Shown here: piece by piece, positions 22,611 to 47,103 of the stretch | How positions within the stretch are numbered: position 1 is the first letter of the stretch | Layout of the letters: each line of letters opens with the position of its first letter | Source of the DNA: Natrarchaeobius halalkaliphilus | GTDB taxonomy: Archaea > Halobacteriota > Halobacteria > Halobacteriales > Natrialbaceae | DNA length: 64,000 bases | Direction: 5' to 3' | Assembly: GCF_003841485.1 (NCBI RefSeq) | Contig: NZ_REFY01000005.1 | Location: 186,001 to 250,000, forward strand | Program-made: the position numbers and the translations under genes | The notes under the pieces: model-generated | The model's input: only the letters and a program-made list of their open reading frames with translations | Database searches by the model: none | Told to the model about the DNA's origin: nothing

Positions 22611-22817
22611 CGCTCGTGCGGCGGCGCATGCTACCGAAGTAACCACTTGTAGTTACTCCGAGACGCTCAGTTCGGTCGGGTTCTGGGGAGTTCCCAAACG
22701 AGGATATCCACCCAGCTCGTCGATTTCGGTGAGAAGAGCCGACGTTCTCTCTGGAGTAGTCACCCATCGGTGTCAACGACAAACGTTAAGAGACAGCCGC
22801 GGTTTTGCTAGCCTAGC

Positions 22818-41679: not shown

Positions 41680-43461
41680 ATGAGCTGGACGCTGAATATC
41701 GATCATATTGCAGGTATTCTGGACGGAAGCGCGGAAATCGAACCGGGGTTGAACGCGGTGAGAGCCGAGAATTGGCAGGGAAAATCGAGTTTCATCATGG
41801 CCGTCGAAGCCGCGATGGGAACGAAAACGCCGCTGACCGAGAACGCCTCGTCGGGCGAAGTCGTCCTCGAGACCGGATCGGAGGAGATATCGGTCTCGTT
41901 TGCCGAACGGAACGGAGCCGTCACCAGACAGGGGACACCGTATCTCGAGAGCGAGTACGATCGAACCTGTGCGGAGCTGTACGCGTTTCTCGACGAGTCG
42001 AATCCGATCCGACGGGCCGTGCGAAACGAAGAGAACCTAGAAGAGCTGCTGACGAAGCCGCTCGATCTCGAGAATATCGACAACCAGATCGCCGAGTTGA
42101 AAGCCGAACGGAACGCGGTCGAATCCGAGCTGGCTCAGGCGAAATCGGCGGCCAAAGAGTTGGTTTCGGCCGAAGAAGAGCTCACGAGACTCGAGGACGA
42201 ACTGGCCTCACTCGAGGACGAACGAGAGGGACTTTCCGAACCCGACACGAACGATGTCGGCCGCGACGACCTGAGCGACGCGCGGACGGAACGGGAGACC
42301 CTCCGCAGTCAGATCGACAGGATCGAATCGAGCATCGGTCGGATCGAAGGAAAGCTCGACGAACAGCGAGCCGAACGCGACGAACTCGAACTCCCCGCGG
42401 AGGAATCACCGGAAACGGACGTACAAGAGCTTCAAGAGCGCCTCCAGCAGACGAGGACCGACATCGAACTCCTGCGGTCGGTCTACACGGCGAACAAGCG
42501 GGTGCTCGACGAGAACCGGCTCGAACTCCTCGCTGACGTCGACCGGGGGATTCTCGACGACGCGTTCGACTGCTGGGTCTGTGGCGGAACGACCGACGAG
42601 GAAGCGGTCGAACACTCCCTCGAACTGTTGCAGTACCGGATCACCGAACTTCAGGACGACGCAGCCGAGCTAGAAGAGCGAGTTCGGACCGTCGAACAGG
42701 CACGTACCGAGCGGAGAAAGGCACAGCGTCGAGCGAAAACGCTCGACTCCGAGATCGAATCGCTCGAGACGAAACTCGCGGATCGTCGGGACACGCTCGA
42801 GCAAAAGCGAGAATCACTCGAGTCGACGGAGGGCCGTATCGAAGAACTCCAGGAGTCCGTGACCGAAACGGAAGACAGGGTCACGGAACTCGAAAGCGAA
42901 ATCAAATACACGAAATCGAAGATTTCGGACACCGAGGACCGAATCGAGACGCTCGAGAACCGGGCCGACCAGCGATCGACGCTCGAGGACGAACGCGAGT
43001 CGCTGTCTGAAGAGATCGCCCAGCTCAGGTCCCGGAGAGAGGAGATGAAAGCGAAGACGCGAGAAGCGTTCAGCGAGTCCATCAGCGACATCATCGACCG
43101 CTTCGATACCAGCTACGAGAGCGCGCGACTGACGTCGGCGTTCGATCTGGTCGTCGCCCGAGACGGCCGCGAAGTCTCGCTCGAAGCGTTGAGCGAGGGC
43201 GAAGTCGTCCTGCTGGGTCTCGTCGCCGCACTCGCGGGGTACGAGGCCTACGACGTCGACGAGCGCGTTCCCGTCATCTTGGTCGACAGCCTCGGCGGGC
43301 TGACCGACAAGAACCTCCACCTCCTCGTCGAATACCTGCGCGAACGCAGCGAACGAGTCGTCTGTACGGCCTATCCCGAACAGTCGTCGTTCGACGGCAG
43401 CGAGATCGATCCGACCTCGTGGACGGTCGTCTCCGACGAGTCGGTCCGGATCGAGCCCTGA
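41680..43461 (+). CDS. Archaea-specific SMC-related (Sph-like) coiled-coil ATPase
   Basis: 593 residues. The N-terminal head has a Walker A variant ENWQGKSSF (about 30-38). Two long coiled coils (about 130-265 and 310-480) flank a hook CWVCGG at 298-303, resembling the Rad50 zinc hook. The C-terminal head has signature LSEGEVVLL and Walker B VPVILVDSLGG. The start MSWTLNIDHIAGI is the hallmark of this haloarchaeal group. TATA-like CATTTATGC is about 30 bp upstream. Likely acts in chromosome structure or cell shape with RdfA; inference from family context. Confidence 0.85.
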   Translation: MSWTLNIDHIAGILDGSAEIEPGLNAVRAENWQGKSSFIMAVEAAMGTKTPLTENASSGEVVLETGSEEISVSFAERNGAVTRQGTPYLESEYDRTCAELYAFLDESNPIRRAVRNEENLEELLTKPLDLENIDNQIAELKAERNAVESELAQAKSAAKELVSAEEELTRLEDELASLEDEREGLSEPDTNDVGRDDLSDARTERETLRSQIDRIESSIGRIEGKLDEQRAERDELELPAEESPETDVQELQERLQQTRTDIELLRSVYTANKRVLDENRLELLADVDRGILDDAFDCWVCGGTTDEEAVEHSLELLQYRITELQDDAAELEERVRTVEQARTERRKAQRRAKTLDSEIESLETKLADRRDTLEQKRESLESTEGRIEELQESVTETEDRVTELESEIKYTKSKISDTEDRIETLENRADQRSTLEDERESLSEEIAQLRSRREEMKAKTREAFSESISDIIDRFDTSYESARLTSAFDLVVARDGREVSLEALSEGEVVLLGLVAALAGYEAYDVDERVPVILVDSLGGLTDKNLHLLVEYLRERSERVVCTAYPEQSSFDGSEIDPTSWTVVSDESVRIEP

Positions 43462-43610: not shown

Positions 43611-44057
43611 TCAGTTGTCGAACGTCATTCCGTATCCCCACTCCTCGAGTTCCAGTTCCACCTCGTCGAGGTGCTCGAGTCCGACCTTGACGAGCGCCTC
43701 CCGGAGATCGGTCAGGGAAACGTCGTCGTCGAAGCGATCCTCGAGCTCCCGAAGGACATCGCGCTCTGCACCCTTCGTCTCCTCGTGGAGGAACAGGGGG
43801 ACGCGGTCGCGACCGTCCTGGACGCCGTCGCGTCGAAACTTGTAGGGGATCCGTATCTGTGGCTGATCGGCGGATCGAGACGTTCCGACCGGACTCGAGG
43901 ACCCGGCGTTCGCGTCGGTCGACTCGGTCGGCTCGACCGTATCGGCCGTGACACCGTCGCTCGAGTCACGCTCTGAGGGTGGGTCGGCGTCCGGGTTCGA
44001 CGTGGTCGCGTCGTCGGCGAACGGATCCTCACCCGCGCCCTCTTTCATGCCAGTCAT
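43611..44057 (-). CDS. Acidic partition-operon partner downstream of parA
   Basis: 148 residues; the start (ATG 44057) overlaps the parA stop. The first 80 residues are low-complexity Ser/Thr/Asp. The C-terminal half is structured (RIPYKFRRDGVQDGRDRVPL, then an acidic helical tail). It has no recognisable ParB nuclease or HTH. Proteins like this accompany ParA on haloarchaeal replicons and could be the centromere binder for the repeat array at 44940. Not proven. Confidence 0.7.
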   Translation of the reverse strand: MTGMKEGAGEDPFADDATTSNPDADPPSERDSSDGVTADTVEPTESTDANAGSSSPVGTSRSADQPQIRIPYKFRRDGVQDGRDRVPLFLHEETKGAERDVLRELEDRFDDDVSLTDLREALVKVGLEHLDEVELELEEWGYGMTFDN

Positions 44058-44929
44058 GCAGAAACCACCTCGGGTTCGAGTTCGCCGGGTTCGGGTGGGT
44101 TCGGAGCCTCGAGATCGACCGACGATTCCAGGTGGCGCGCGATGCGGTCGAACTGGGCGAGCGTCTCGAGTTCGTACTCGCGTCGACGCTCGCGATGGTC
44201 GCGGACGTACCGAAACGCAGAGCACTGTTGCATCCAACAGCCCTCCATCAGCGACGCGCGTTCACCGATAACCTCCGGAACGGGGTACTCGATCTCGTCG
44301 AGGATCGTTCGCTGGTCCCGCGTGTTCTTGAACCCGATCGGGATCGCGGCGAGGACGCCGACTTCGACGTCGAGTTGGTCCTCGAGTCCGGCGACGAGCG
44401 ATTCCAGTCCCTCGACTGCGGCTCTGCCTTTCGCGCTCGGTTCGACGGGAATCGCGAGCGACCGCGTGGCGTGGATCGCGTTGTAGAGATGGGGTCCTTC
44501 GGTCGCCGGCGGGTCACAGATGAGGACGTCGTAGGTTTCGGGGACGCCGGCCTCCCGGAGAACGCGGAGCAACTGGGCGTGCATGCCGAACGCTTCGCCC
44601 ATCGCTTCGGCCTGGTCTTTCTCTCGCTGGAGGTACTCGGTGAGATCGGAGAGCATGTTGTGTTCGGGGACGATGTCGACTCCCTCGACGGTGCGAACGA
44701 GATCGTCGAACTCGCCTTTCGGTCGACGGATCATGTGCCGCACCAGATTGTCGACCGACTCCGTTCGATCGTCGTCGACGCCGAAGAGGCGCGAGAGGTC
44801 CCCGTCCTGAGGGTCGAGCGGGATAACGAGGGGTTTGAGCCCCGCTCGAGCGTGTGCAACGGCCAGATTCGCCGCCGTCGTCGTCTTCCCGACACCGCCA
44901 GCCTCGCTGTACGTCGAGTACGCTAACAT
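44054..44929 (-). CDS. parA: ParA/Soj-family partition ATPase
   Basis: 292 residues from the ATG at 44929 (MLAYSTYSEAGGVGKTT). Upstream residues of the longer frame belong to the repeat region. Walker A GGVGKTT is present, but the signature lysine of the deviant motif (KGGxGKT) is Ala here. Switch and DxD-type motifs are seen in LDPQDGDLSRLFG and LICDPPATEG. The repeat array begins 11 bp upstream of its start. Confidence 0.9.
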   Translation of the reverse strand: MLAYSTYSEAGGVGKTTTAANLAVAHARAGLKPLVIPLDPQDGDLSRLFGVDDDRTESVDNLVRHMIRRPKGEFDDLVRTVEGVDIVPEHNMLSDLTEYLQREKDQAEAMGEAFGMHAQLLRVLREAGVPETYDVLICDPPATEGPHLYNAIHATRSLAIPVEPSAKGRAAVEGLESLVAGLEDQLDVEVGVLAAIPIGFKNTRDQRTILDEIEYPVPEVIGERASLMEGCWMQQCSAFRYVRDHRERRREYELETLAQFDRIARHLESSVDLEAPNPPEPGELEPEVVSA

Positions 44930-44939
44930 ACCCACACCA

Positions 44940-45199
44940 TGAACATCACCCATCTTGAAAGTTCGTAACCCACATTCAGTACACAAACAACCACACCACA
45001 GTAACTACAACAAGTAATTAACATTGTTCATGAATACACTGAATGAACATCATCCATGAACACACGAGATGGATACGAACAATGAACACACAGGGGTACC
45101 ACACAGAGTGAACAGTAAGGATGAATAGCAATCACGAACAGCACCTGTGAACAACTCCCATGAACAACACCGATGAACGGAGTTCGAGAACACCACACA
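44940..45199. repeat. 13-bp-period tandem array upstream of parA, candidate centromere (parS)
   Basis: From 44940 units recur every 13 bp with consensus TGAACANCACNNA. Clear units start at 44940, 45044, 45057, 45083, 45109, 45148 and 45161 (all TGAACA). One-mismatch units start at 45031 and 45122 (TGAATA), 45135 (CGAACA), 45174 (TGAACG) and 45187 (AGAACA). Weaker ones lie in register at 45018, 45070 and 45096. About 20 units in 260 bp, AT-rich against its neighbours, with no open frame. The location next to parA is that of iteron-type centromeres. Confidence 0.85.
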
Positions 45200-45264
45200 G
45201 TGGGCTCGAAAACGAAGAGAAGAGCGCTCGGAACAACACGGGAACACCCGCCGATCGATGACCG

Positions 45265-47103
45265 TCAGTCCGGACACTCACACGACACGCCCGTCACCTC
45301 GAAACGGGCCCCGCCCAGTTCGCTCCGCGTGACGTCGATCTCCCAGTCGTGGGCGCGAACGATCTGGTCGACGCTGGCCAGTCCGAACCCGGTTCCGGAT
45401 TCTTTCGTCGAGTAACCAGGTTCGAACACGTCGTCGTCGGCGTCGTCGGGAATCCCCGGACCGTCGTCGCTCACGTAGAACCCATCCGACAGCGTTCCGA
45501 CGACGACCGCGGTGTCGGGACCGCCGTGTTCGACCGCGTTCGAGAACAGGTTCTCGAGCAGTCGCTTGAGTGCGAAGTAATCCGCGCGGACGACGGTCGA
45601 CCGGTCGACCGACACCGAGAGTCGAGACAGACCGAGCGTCGCCTCGAGGTCCTCGACGACGTCGCGAAACTCGATGGGGGTCTCGTCGCCGGCGAGGCGT
45701 CGTCCCCGTAACAGGCCGGTGACGTCGTCGATCAGTTCCTCAGCTCGTTCGAGCGCGTGTTCGACCTGATCGAACTGCTCGTCGCCGCCGATTTCGCGAG
45801 CCAATTCGAGTCGTCCGCGCGCCACGCTGATGGGGCCCTGCAGATCGTGGGCCAGGACCGATGCGAGAAGGTCGAGCTGTTCGTCGGTGGCACGATCGGT
45901 CGGAAGGGGTGTGGGCCCCTCGTCGAGAGAGCGTGACGTCCGCTCGCTTCCCGACGGACAGGAGCGACCGACGCCGACAACCGCTCGAAGGTCGCCGCCC
46001 GACTCGACCGGAACGGCGCTGAGTTCGTACGAATCTGTCCCGTTTCCGGTCCCGAGTGACGTCTCGAGCGTGACAGGAATTCGCCGGGCTGCGACGTCCT
46101 CGAAGAGACGCTGAACGCGCGGTTGGGCCTCGCCGTCGAACAGTTCCGACGGAGTGGAAAACTCGATCTCGTCCGAACTTTGACCGGTTACGTTCTCGAG
46201 GTGGTCGTTCCACCGAACGCATCGCAGATCGGGATCGAAGACGTAGAACAGCTCCTCGAGTTCGTCGAAAGCGCTGATCAGAACCTGCGGGTCGAGAGGG
46301 GGCACGTGTTCTCGATCGGGTTCCGAAGAGAGCTCGCGAACGACACAGACGTGACCGCCGTCTACCATCTGCGTCAGCGTCAGCGACTCCGGAATGCGCT
46401 CGTCGTGTTTCGTGAGACCGACTGATCGGCCGGACCAGGAACCGGTTTCCTCGAGCAACGGAAGGATCTCCTCGTCGAAGCGGATCGCTTCGTCGTCGGG
46501 ATAGAGGGTTTTCCAGTGGCTCCCGAGGAGTTCATTCGGATCGTGGTCGTAAATCTCGGCGTACGCTCGGTTGACGTACTGGTAGGTCCCGTCCCGACCG
46601 AGAATGCCGATCCCCTCGTCGGCCGACTCCATCGCCTGAAACCCGCGGTAGACCTCCTGTTCGGCGCGGCGTTTGCCCACCGCGTGTTCGATCCGGTTCG
46701 TCAACACGGTGTACTGATCCGTTCCGGTTTCCTTCTGGAAGTATTCGGTGACGCCCGCAGAGATCGCCTCGCTGGCGATTTCCTCGCTTCCCTTGCCGGT
46801 AAAGAGGATAAACGGGAGGTTCGGGTGGCTGTCGCGAACGGTATCGAGAAACTCGAGTCCGCTGGTTTCTGGCATATCGTAGTCGCTTACGATACAGTCG
46901 ATGTCCTCGGTCGACAACGTATCGAGACCCGCGTCGACGCTCGTTTCCGTCGTGACGGAGAATCGGTCTGTTTCGCGCTCGAGAAAGGTCGCGGCTAGTT
47001 CGACCAGCTGAGAGTCGTCGTCGACGTGTAGAACCCTGATCGGTTCGGACGCGGAAACGAAATCGCCGTGTCTGGAGAGCCGCTCTCCGCCGGACGGGCT
47101 CAT
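45265..47103 (-). CDS. Hybrid sensor histidine kinase with N-terminal receiver domain
   Basis: 612 residues. Order: receiver domain (RVLHVDDDSQ; phospho-acceptor Asp in IVSDYDMP near residue 74; switch Lys in QKETG), PAS domain (about 155-255), second PAS-like segment (about 270-380), HisKA with LAHDLQGPISVARG and HATPase with NAVEHGG, DDGPGIPDD and GTGFGLA. The cytoplasmic REC-PAS-PAS-HK layout is common in haloarchaea. No cognate output regulator is adjacent; the signal is unknown. Confidence 0.92.
   Translation of the reverse strand: MSPSGGERLSRHGDFVSASEPIRVLHVDDDSQLVELAATFLERETDRFSVTTETSVDAGLDTLSTEDIDCIVSDYDMPETSGLEFLDTVRDSHPNLPFILFTGKGSEEIASEAISAGVTEYFQKETGTDQYTVLTNRIEHAVGKRRAEQEVYRGFQAMESADEGIGILGRDGTYQYVNRAYAEIYDHDPNELLGSHWKTLYPDDEAIRFDEEILPLLEETGSWSGRSVGLTKHDERIPESLTLTQMVDGGHVCVVRELSSEPDREHVPPLDPQVLISAFDELEELFYVFDPDLRCVRWNDHLENVTGQSSDEIEFSTPSELFDGEAQPRVQRLFEDVAARRIPVTLETSLGTGNGTDSYELSAVPVESGGDLRAVVGVGRSCPSGSERTSRSLDEGPTPLPTDRATDEQLDLLASVLAHDLQGPISVARGRLELAREIGGDEQFDQVEHALERAEELIDDVTGLLRGRRLAGDETPIEFRDVVEDLEATLGLSRLSVSVDRSTVVRADYFALKRLLENLFSNAVEHGGPDTAVVVGTLSDGFYVSDDGPGIPDDADDDVFEPGYSTKESGTGFGLASVDQIVRAHDWEIDVTRSELGGARFEVTGVSCECPD

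Follow-up and report, generated by a model that had tools for sequence, protein, structure and literature searches.

What is the row of short, evenly spaced boxes that lies directly upstream of a parA gene in the haloarchaeon Natrarchaeobius halalkaliphilus, and what purpose does it serve? The boxes belong to a window of 64,000 nucleotides (contig NZ_REFY01000005.1, positions 186,001 to 250,000), to which the positions below refer unless another contig or accession is named. A preliminary description, made from the letters of the window, had read them as a 20-unit array with an exact period of 13 bp, covering the parA promoter and likely forming a new type of haloarchaeal centromere and operator. 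The period, its occurrence at other loci, the proteins encoded beside it and the competing explanations are considered here in turn.

The array and its operon

The 13-bp period upstream of parA is genuine. Autocorrelation of the intergenic region (44930-45264) gives z = 5.7, 7.45 and 3.5 at lags 13, 26 and 39 respectively, and the highest value produced by 1000 dinucleotide shuffles over 45 lags was z 3.76; the peak on which the preliminary description had staked its case thus exceeds the shuffled controls. With up to one mismatch allowed, the box TGAACA occurs 16 times on the + strand of the same region, and 13 of these copies share a single phase (binomial P 1.5e-12). Across the window as a whole, z at lag 13 (z13) reaches at least 3.5 in 2 of 364 segments (350 bp, base shuffles), both of which lie over the array.

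Table 1. Coordinates of the array, the parA operon and the adjoining genes in the window
Feature	Position	Strand	Remarks
Archaea-specific SMC-related protein, downstream convergent neighbour	41680..43461	+	NF045487, 449.6 bits (cut-off 300)
Partner, 148 aa, proposed centromere-binding protein	43611..44057	-	Start overlaps parA stop by 4 bp
parA, 291 aa	44054..44929	-	AAA_31 7e-18; Walker A SEAGGVGKT without signature lysine
Isolated exact TGAACA box, proposed operator position	44940..44945	no strand	Same 13-bp phase; between promoter-like block and parA start
BRE/TATA-like block, putative promoter	44956..44968	-	-39 to -27 from parA ATG; parA sense TTACGAACTTTCA
Core array, proposed centromere	45018..45199	no strand	14 contiguous 13-bp unit positions, 12/14 with at most one mismatch
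Receiver/PAS histidine kinase, upstream neighbour	45265..47103	-	Bounds the intergenic region; outside the system

The core array (Table 1) carries its box as TGAACA on the + strand, that is, TGTTCA on the sense strand of parA. Its two outliers differ from TGAACA by two mismatches (45070) and three (45096), and a single inverted exact box is found inside it at 45025. Constraint within the 13-bp unit falls on box positions 1-6 and on position 13, positions 7-12 being nearly free, and TRF detects just the most regular segment (45136-45178, period 13, score 51). All 12 box positions given in the preliminary description are TGAACA or one-base variants spaced by exact multiples of 13 bp; a thirteenth box, TTAACA at 45018, had been overlooked. 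The figure of 20 units was too high because five in-phase slots, from 44953 to 45017, hold no box, the first two of them being occupied by the promoter-like block, so that 14 contiguous positions and the single in-phase box at 44940 take its place. That the array contains no gene agrees with the list of open reading frames, and with parA starting at 44929 the stretch does include the inferred promoter region of that gene.

A CRISPR array is built of repeats some 25-40 bp long that are almost identical and alternate with unique spacers of comparable length. Such an identity is ruled out for the array by its 13-bp step, its conserved box of 6-7 bp and its lack of a long repeat.

The BRE/TATA-like block is the putative parA promoter. 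In a position profile of 169 distinct leaders, conservation over the final 60 positions is highest at -33, -30 to -26 and -1, a pattern that would fit a near-leaderless parA transcript.

Judged by its sequence relatives, the parA product is a Soj/ParA-type ATPase: Soj structures are found among its relatives in the PDB, and its match to AAA_31 begins at residue 8, so that no N-terminal DNA-binding extension is present. The overlap between the start of the partner gene and the stop of parA is 4 bp in 99 of 107 family loci and 1 bp in six, the two others being left unassigned by the script. The SMC-related gene adjoins this candidate partition operon in convergent orientation. The contig measures 385,578 bases and, as assembled, has a pair of orc1/cdc6 genes some 145 kb from the array, and no tRNA genes were found within the window; together these features would fit a megaplasmid.

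The same period across Halobacteria

Further loci were gathered by searching for the partner, which had matches in 77 of 125 genomes of the family; a profile of it matched 186 of the 292 genomes sampled across the class Halobacteria. The family supplied 110 loci, from which three without parA and five with fewer than 120 bp upstream were dropped before counting (leaving 102), and nine more were added later, one of them without parA. Other families of the order supplied 72 loci (14 + 58). The resulting 174 loci retain L057 and L180, which have a broken or partial parA match, and the z values compared across loci derive from base shuffles, whereas those of the window autocorrelation derive from dinucleotide shuffles.

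Among lags 5 to 45, the strongest is 13, 26 or 39 in 92 of the 102 family loci and in 61 of the 72 loci from other families, which amounts to 153 of 174 upstream regions across the class. The controls yield 28 of 364 window segments, approximately the chance rate of three lags in 41, together with 8 of 179 parA coding starts and 10 of 89 segments located 0.7-1.05 kb upstream. A z13 of at least 3.5 is attained at 127 of the 174 loci, as against 2/364, 0/179 and 3/89 in the respective controls. All eight of the later-added loci that have parA show one of the three lags as strongest, though at least two of them duplicate loci already counted. When 176 upstream regions are pooled (L057 and L180 omitted), the six strongest lags between 3 and 79 are 13, 26, 39, 52, 65 and 78, and 99% of the 172 distinct sequences show an excess at lag 13. 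Named plasmids behave alike: a multiple of 13 is strongest in 13 of 14 from five families, at least four of which, judged by record length, also figure among the 174. Plasmids with the array include Halobacterium pNRC200, Haloquadratum PL100, Haloferax pHME132 and Natronomonas PL131, and the one exception, pHsi204, has lag 9 first and lag 39 second. A search for the array at other haloarchaeal parA genes, which the preliminary description had proposed, is therefore strongly positive, and the 13-bp period at the parA/partner operon is a real feature of the class. Literature searches covering open-licence papers listed none that describes the array.

Exceptions to this are 21 of the 174 loci, whose strongest lag falls outside the multiples of 13. 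Ten of these attain a z13 of at least 3.5 once many narrower windows are scanned, without a control, and the best one is taken; ten stay below that value even there (L046, L049, L056, L057, L111, L173, L189, L208, L213 and L217), and L180 was not scannable. One near tie, L079 (lag 44 first, z13 2.7), was counted as an exception, and its copy L241, which has an identical partner core, has lag 13 first. Upstream of its parA, Haloferax mediterranei pHME132 (L119, NZ_CP039142.1:20763-21037) carries a pair of TGAACA arrays separated by about 130 bp. A search of the phylum found the partner in 30 of 294 genomes, 29 of them in the order of the window or nearer and one marginal (8.6e-4), in a sample whose class make-up is not stated; among 50,697 phage records the partner had no match at E 0.01.

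The letters of the box vary between loci. Folded at 13 bp, the upstream regions yield box families as diverse as TGTTCA, TCTTAGA, CTAACTAGTTAG, GTAACAG, GTTTCAAAC and ACTG..CAGT. Over the 101 loci with a clear array, median box likeness is 0.75-0.76 for pairs whose partner cores share at least 60% identity; for less similar cores it is 0.35-0.36, set against a null of 0.37 from column-shuffled motifs. In a Mantel comparison of box with partner, none of 300 permutations reaches the observed correlation. Most of the box families pair with one predicted partner strand among the rows printed for each class (up to nine): TGTTCA boxes with RDRVPLFL, CTTAG boxes with RAxTVQLHL or RKKTVQLHL, GTAACAG boxes with RDxRIExHL and similar strands, TTTCAAA boxes with RDERLTFFV, and ACTG..CAGT boxes mostly with RDxVHQLFV. 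The CTAACTAG class has mixed strands, L008 and L011, whose strand is RDRVPLFL, form a separate box cluster, and box class and predicted strand do not correspond one to one. This covariation roughly resembles that of a reader and its site, and joint inheritance would account for part of it.

Dyad symmetry within the unit, which would be expected if each unit bound one dimer, attains P < 0.05 in only 44 of 116 loci, so that a strict model of one palindrome per unit holds only in part. Odd-centred dyads are enriched across the upstream region with t 9.4, as compared with 3.4 for even-centred ones, and the 172 pooled loci display secondary lags at 4 and 9 and at sums of these with 13, namely 17, 22, 30, 35 and 48, with t values of roughly 9 to 14. 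The 13-bp unit may accordingly contain a pair of related half-boxes, offset from each other by 4 (or 9) bp.

On five named plasmids chosen for arrays of the TGTTCA type, 24 of 24 matches to a triple of TGAACA boxes at 13-bp steps lie upstream of parA, and a reversed control pattern has 0 matches on the same plasmids. The genome of the window holds 11 such triples, ten in the main array and one elsewhere on the same contig. The latter, a mini-array 76 kb from the main array (L227, C5:307435-307476), comprises three direct TGAACA-type boxes at 13-bp steps and one inverted TGTTCA, and is possibly a second binding site.

Systems with like partners seldom share a genome. With partner identity taken as a proxy for box identity, partners at least 60% identical occur in 3 of 47 pairs of systems within one genome, where 8.7 would be expected (P 0.012). 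Before the nine later matches were added the count was 1 of 33 (P 0.0076), making the fuller count the weaker, and two of the three alike pairs, whose partner cores do not differ at all, may reflect duplication in the assembly. Incompatibility acting via the centromere would give such scarcity, as might other causes.

The partner protein and the ParA ATPase

Sequence searches place the partner in no Pfam, NCBIfam or PHROGs family, single members alone giving weak matches, and they return no RHH family. Against the PDB, likewise by sequence, neither an RHH protein nor any related solved structure appears. AlphaFold2 assigns no secondary structure before residue 92, and its confidence is low as far as about residue 80; the N-terminal half is without predicted structure. 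The C-terminal domain (residues 84-134) is modelled confidently (core model pLDDT 93) as an extended segment followed by three helices; neither partner model contains an assigned strand, and a ribbon would need a dimer. Foldseek searches with the partner models give no match at E <= 0.001. VIA-align ranks the RHH domain of F TraM first for both models (Z 4.5 and 5.2, 51 residues, 2.6-2.7 A), although even the Z of 5.2 falls below the level that this program trusts. Next in rank are TCP domains and then antitoxin complexes, including DinJ-YafQ, all of which we take to be RHH or RHH-like. An RHH fold of the C-terminal domain is likely, with weak structural support.

The ATPase departs from its family at a signature residue. 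The signature lysine of the deviant Walker A motif is presented as a defining feature of ParA ATPases in the part of PMC8262871 that was available. This lysine is absent before GGVGKT at 185 of 185 loci, where Ala (165) or Ser (20) stands in its place, L057 and L180 being omitted from the count. The same excerpt records the loss of the signature lysine in carboxysome beta-McdA type 1 (PMC8262871). Because the lysine is absent from every one of these loci, the system is described here as a variant that would function in the manner of type Ib rather than as an ordinary member.

The genome of the window also encodes a paralogous parA with a distant partner of 146 aa (L228, C7:21271-22634). Its leader (about 22690-22780) has lag peaks at 16, 12 and 24 and none at 13, and by eye it contains boxes stepped by 4 bp (of the CCAG/CTAG/TAAA type) that are reminiscent of tetramer-box centromeres. 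Four other ParA-like genes of this genome, L003-L006, likewise show no 13-bp peak. Since the paralogue with a distant partner lacks the peak, the 13-bp step seems tied to the family of the window partner.

Known partition systems and competing explanations

A ParA, a small RHH partner and tandem short upstream sites make up the type Ib plan, which is already known (PMC9499535, PMC7308502); the novelty lies in the 13-bp spacing, in the family being haloarchaeal and in a ParA that lacks the signature lysine. The centromere and operator favoured by the preliminary description is the best reading, but calling it a new type went too far. By analogy, the window locus is a candidate for a locus that works like type Ib. 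It has the ParA-family ATPase without N-terminal DNA-binding extension and the small partner gene downstream of parA, whose product would owe its RHH assignment to the low-Z TraM alignment and has no sequence match. An array of short repeats precedes the par genes at the 153 loci counted above, and the missing lysine sets all 185 loci read apart from ordinary type Ib members.

In the portion of PMC9499535 consulted, the delta/omega/parS system of pSM19035 is a type Ib system with an RHH ParB, and its parS sites, each composed of 7-10 contiguous short sites, overlap the promoters of the par genes and bind omega dimers modelled as spiralling round straight DNA. A ParA ATPase, a small partner of RHH type (predicted in the window) and contiguous short sites at par promoters are common to both, but pSM19035 is bacterial and uses 7-bp heptads (WATCACW), whereas the window locus is archaeal and uses 13-bp units (PMC9499535). 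The partner has no sequence relation to RHH families, as judged from family searches and not from omega itself. ParG of TP228, as excerpted, binds its centromere and represses its own operon (PMC7308502). The ParF/ParG/parH system resembles the window locus in its ParA-type motor, its RHH protein with unstructured tails, its centromere array of short, degenerate boxes and its operon repression, features that are partly predicted in the window, and departs from it in having tetramer boxes with AT-rich spacers and no 13-bp step in the account given there (PMC7308502). By eye, the C7 paralogue looks closer to TP228 than the window array does.

Archaeal systems offer further parallels. SegB sites of Sulfolobales are 13-bp palindromes, TCTAGASTCTAGA, scattered over the chromosome, according to the available text of PMC12284271. 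SegAB shares with the window locus an archaeal ParA with an RHH partner (again predicted in the window), a site length of 13 bp and sites upstream of the operon, but its scattered palindromes differ from a tandem array with a TGAACA box (PMC12284271). Inspection of the 14 window units against this site, as published in that text, does not find the SegB-type palindrome TCTAGASTCTAGA in them. Sequence comparison with solved structures found none related to the partner, SegB itself not being among those aligned. AspA/ParB/ParA of pNOB8 is another archaeal plasmid partition system that combines a ParA with a site-specific binder; it has three proteins, and the comparison, drawn from the excerpt of PMC9178275, covers the proteins. 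The TraM RHH domain of the F plasmid (4qpo) gives the best structural alignment of the partner domain, at low Z. TraM belongs to the relaxosome and so differs in role from a partition protein, as the consulted part of PMC12117103 has it.

The position of the array, its conservation across the class, its covariation with the partner and the scarcity of like systems per genome make a combined centromere and operator the best reading. The array is most likely a centromere-like site (parS) and the operator of a plasmid partition operon; the geometric details of its mechanism are held with less confidence. It is unlikely that the array is an operator only, where a repressor would bind cooperatively to autoregulate parA and the partner, with the centromere elsewhere on the replicon. 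One box and the promoter-like block do lie less than 40 bp from the parA start, 28 of 43 near relatives, with ParA identity of 84% or more, keep the boxes in one phase relative to the start codon, as in an operator, and the mini-array on the same contig points the same way. Against this, 14 units seem to exceed what an operator needs, the five named plasmids hold no second array of the TGAACA/13-bp pattern, and known RHH systems, in the accounts consulted, combine both roles (pSM19035, PMC9499535; ParG, PMC7308502).

Replication iterons, whose boxes would bind a replication initiator and whose link to parA would be mere neighbourhood, are a distinctly improbable explanation. On some plasmids (L125, L126 and L129) orc1/cdc6 does lie within a few kb of parA, but the arrays were found via parA and the partner, the box letters track the partner, and the orc1/cdc6 pair on the contig of the window is far from the array. 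Slippage, a neutral tandem duplication of a 13-mer with no bound protein, would yield both the exact period and the direct orientation of the boxes. It is scarcely credible here, where constraint is limited to unit positions 1-6 and 13 with six near-random positions between them, and where the same period recurs with unrelated boxes at one operon across the class.

If the array is both centromere and operator, the partner would bind it as an RHH dimer, one dimer to each 13-bp unit, adjacent and touching, in the way of the omega-parS spiral (PMC9499535) and on a site equal in length to the 13 bp of SegB (PMC12284271). Successive dimers would be turned by about 86 degrees (13 x 360/10.5 = 445.7, i.e. 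85.7 degrees, so that the rotation of 85-90 degrees per site in the preliminary description is arithmetically correct), and the bound dimers would then wind round the DNA. The N-terminal arms of the partner, predicted to be disordered, may recruit and stimulate ParA, which would move the replicon, and partner bound to the promoter-proximal boxes would repress parA and its own gene. The box letters would drift jointly with the DNA-reading strand of the partner and so give rise to incompatibility groups, and the 13-bp step would be held constant by the packing of dimer against dimer. Put more broadly, these loci may represent a haloarchaea-wide centromere class in which the step is conserved (13 bp, about 86 degrees, 4/9-bp substructure) and the letters are free, with a fixed RHH filament, a drifting partner that makes incompatibility groups and a lysine-less ParA that completes its ATPase site otherwise. 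The chances of this wider proposal are about even.

The array offers a candidate haloarchaeal centromere with a simple signature, accompanied by a partner gene that is present in 186 of the 292 sampled genomes of the class. Its presence on pNRC200 and on Haloferax plasmids places it in organisms with genetic tools, so that plasmid incompatibility, plasmid typing and stable vectors in haloarchaea become directly testable. The loci would also supply a ready-made set of protein-DNA pairs that share a geometry and differ in specificity. For the haloarchaea themselves, the array is probably the DNA handle by which large plasmids are inherited at cell division.
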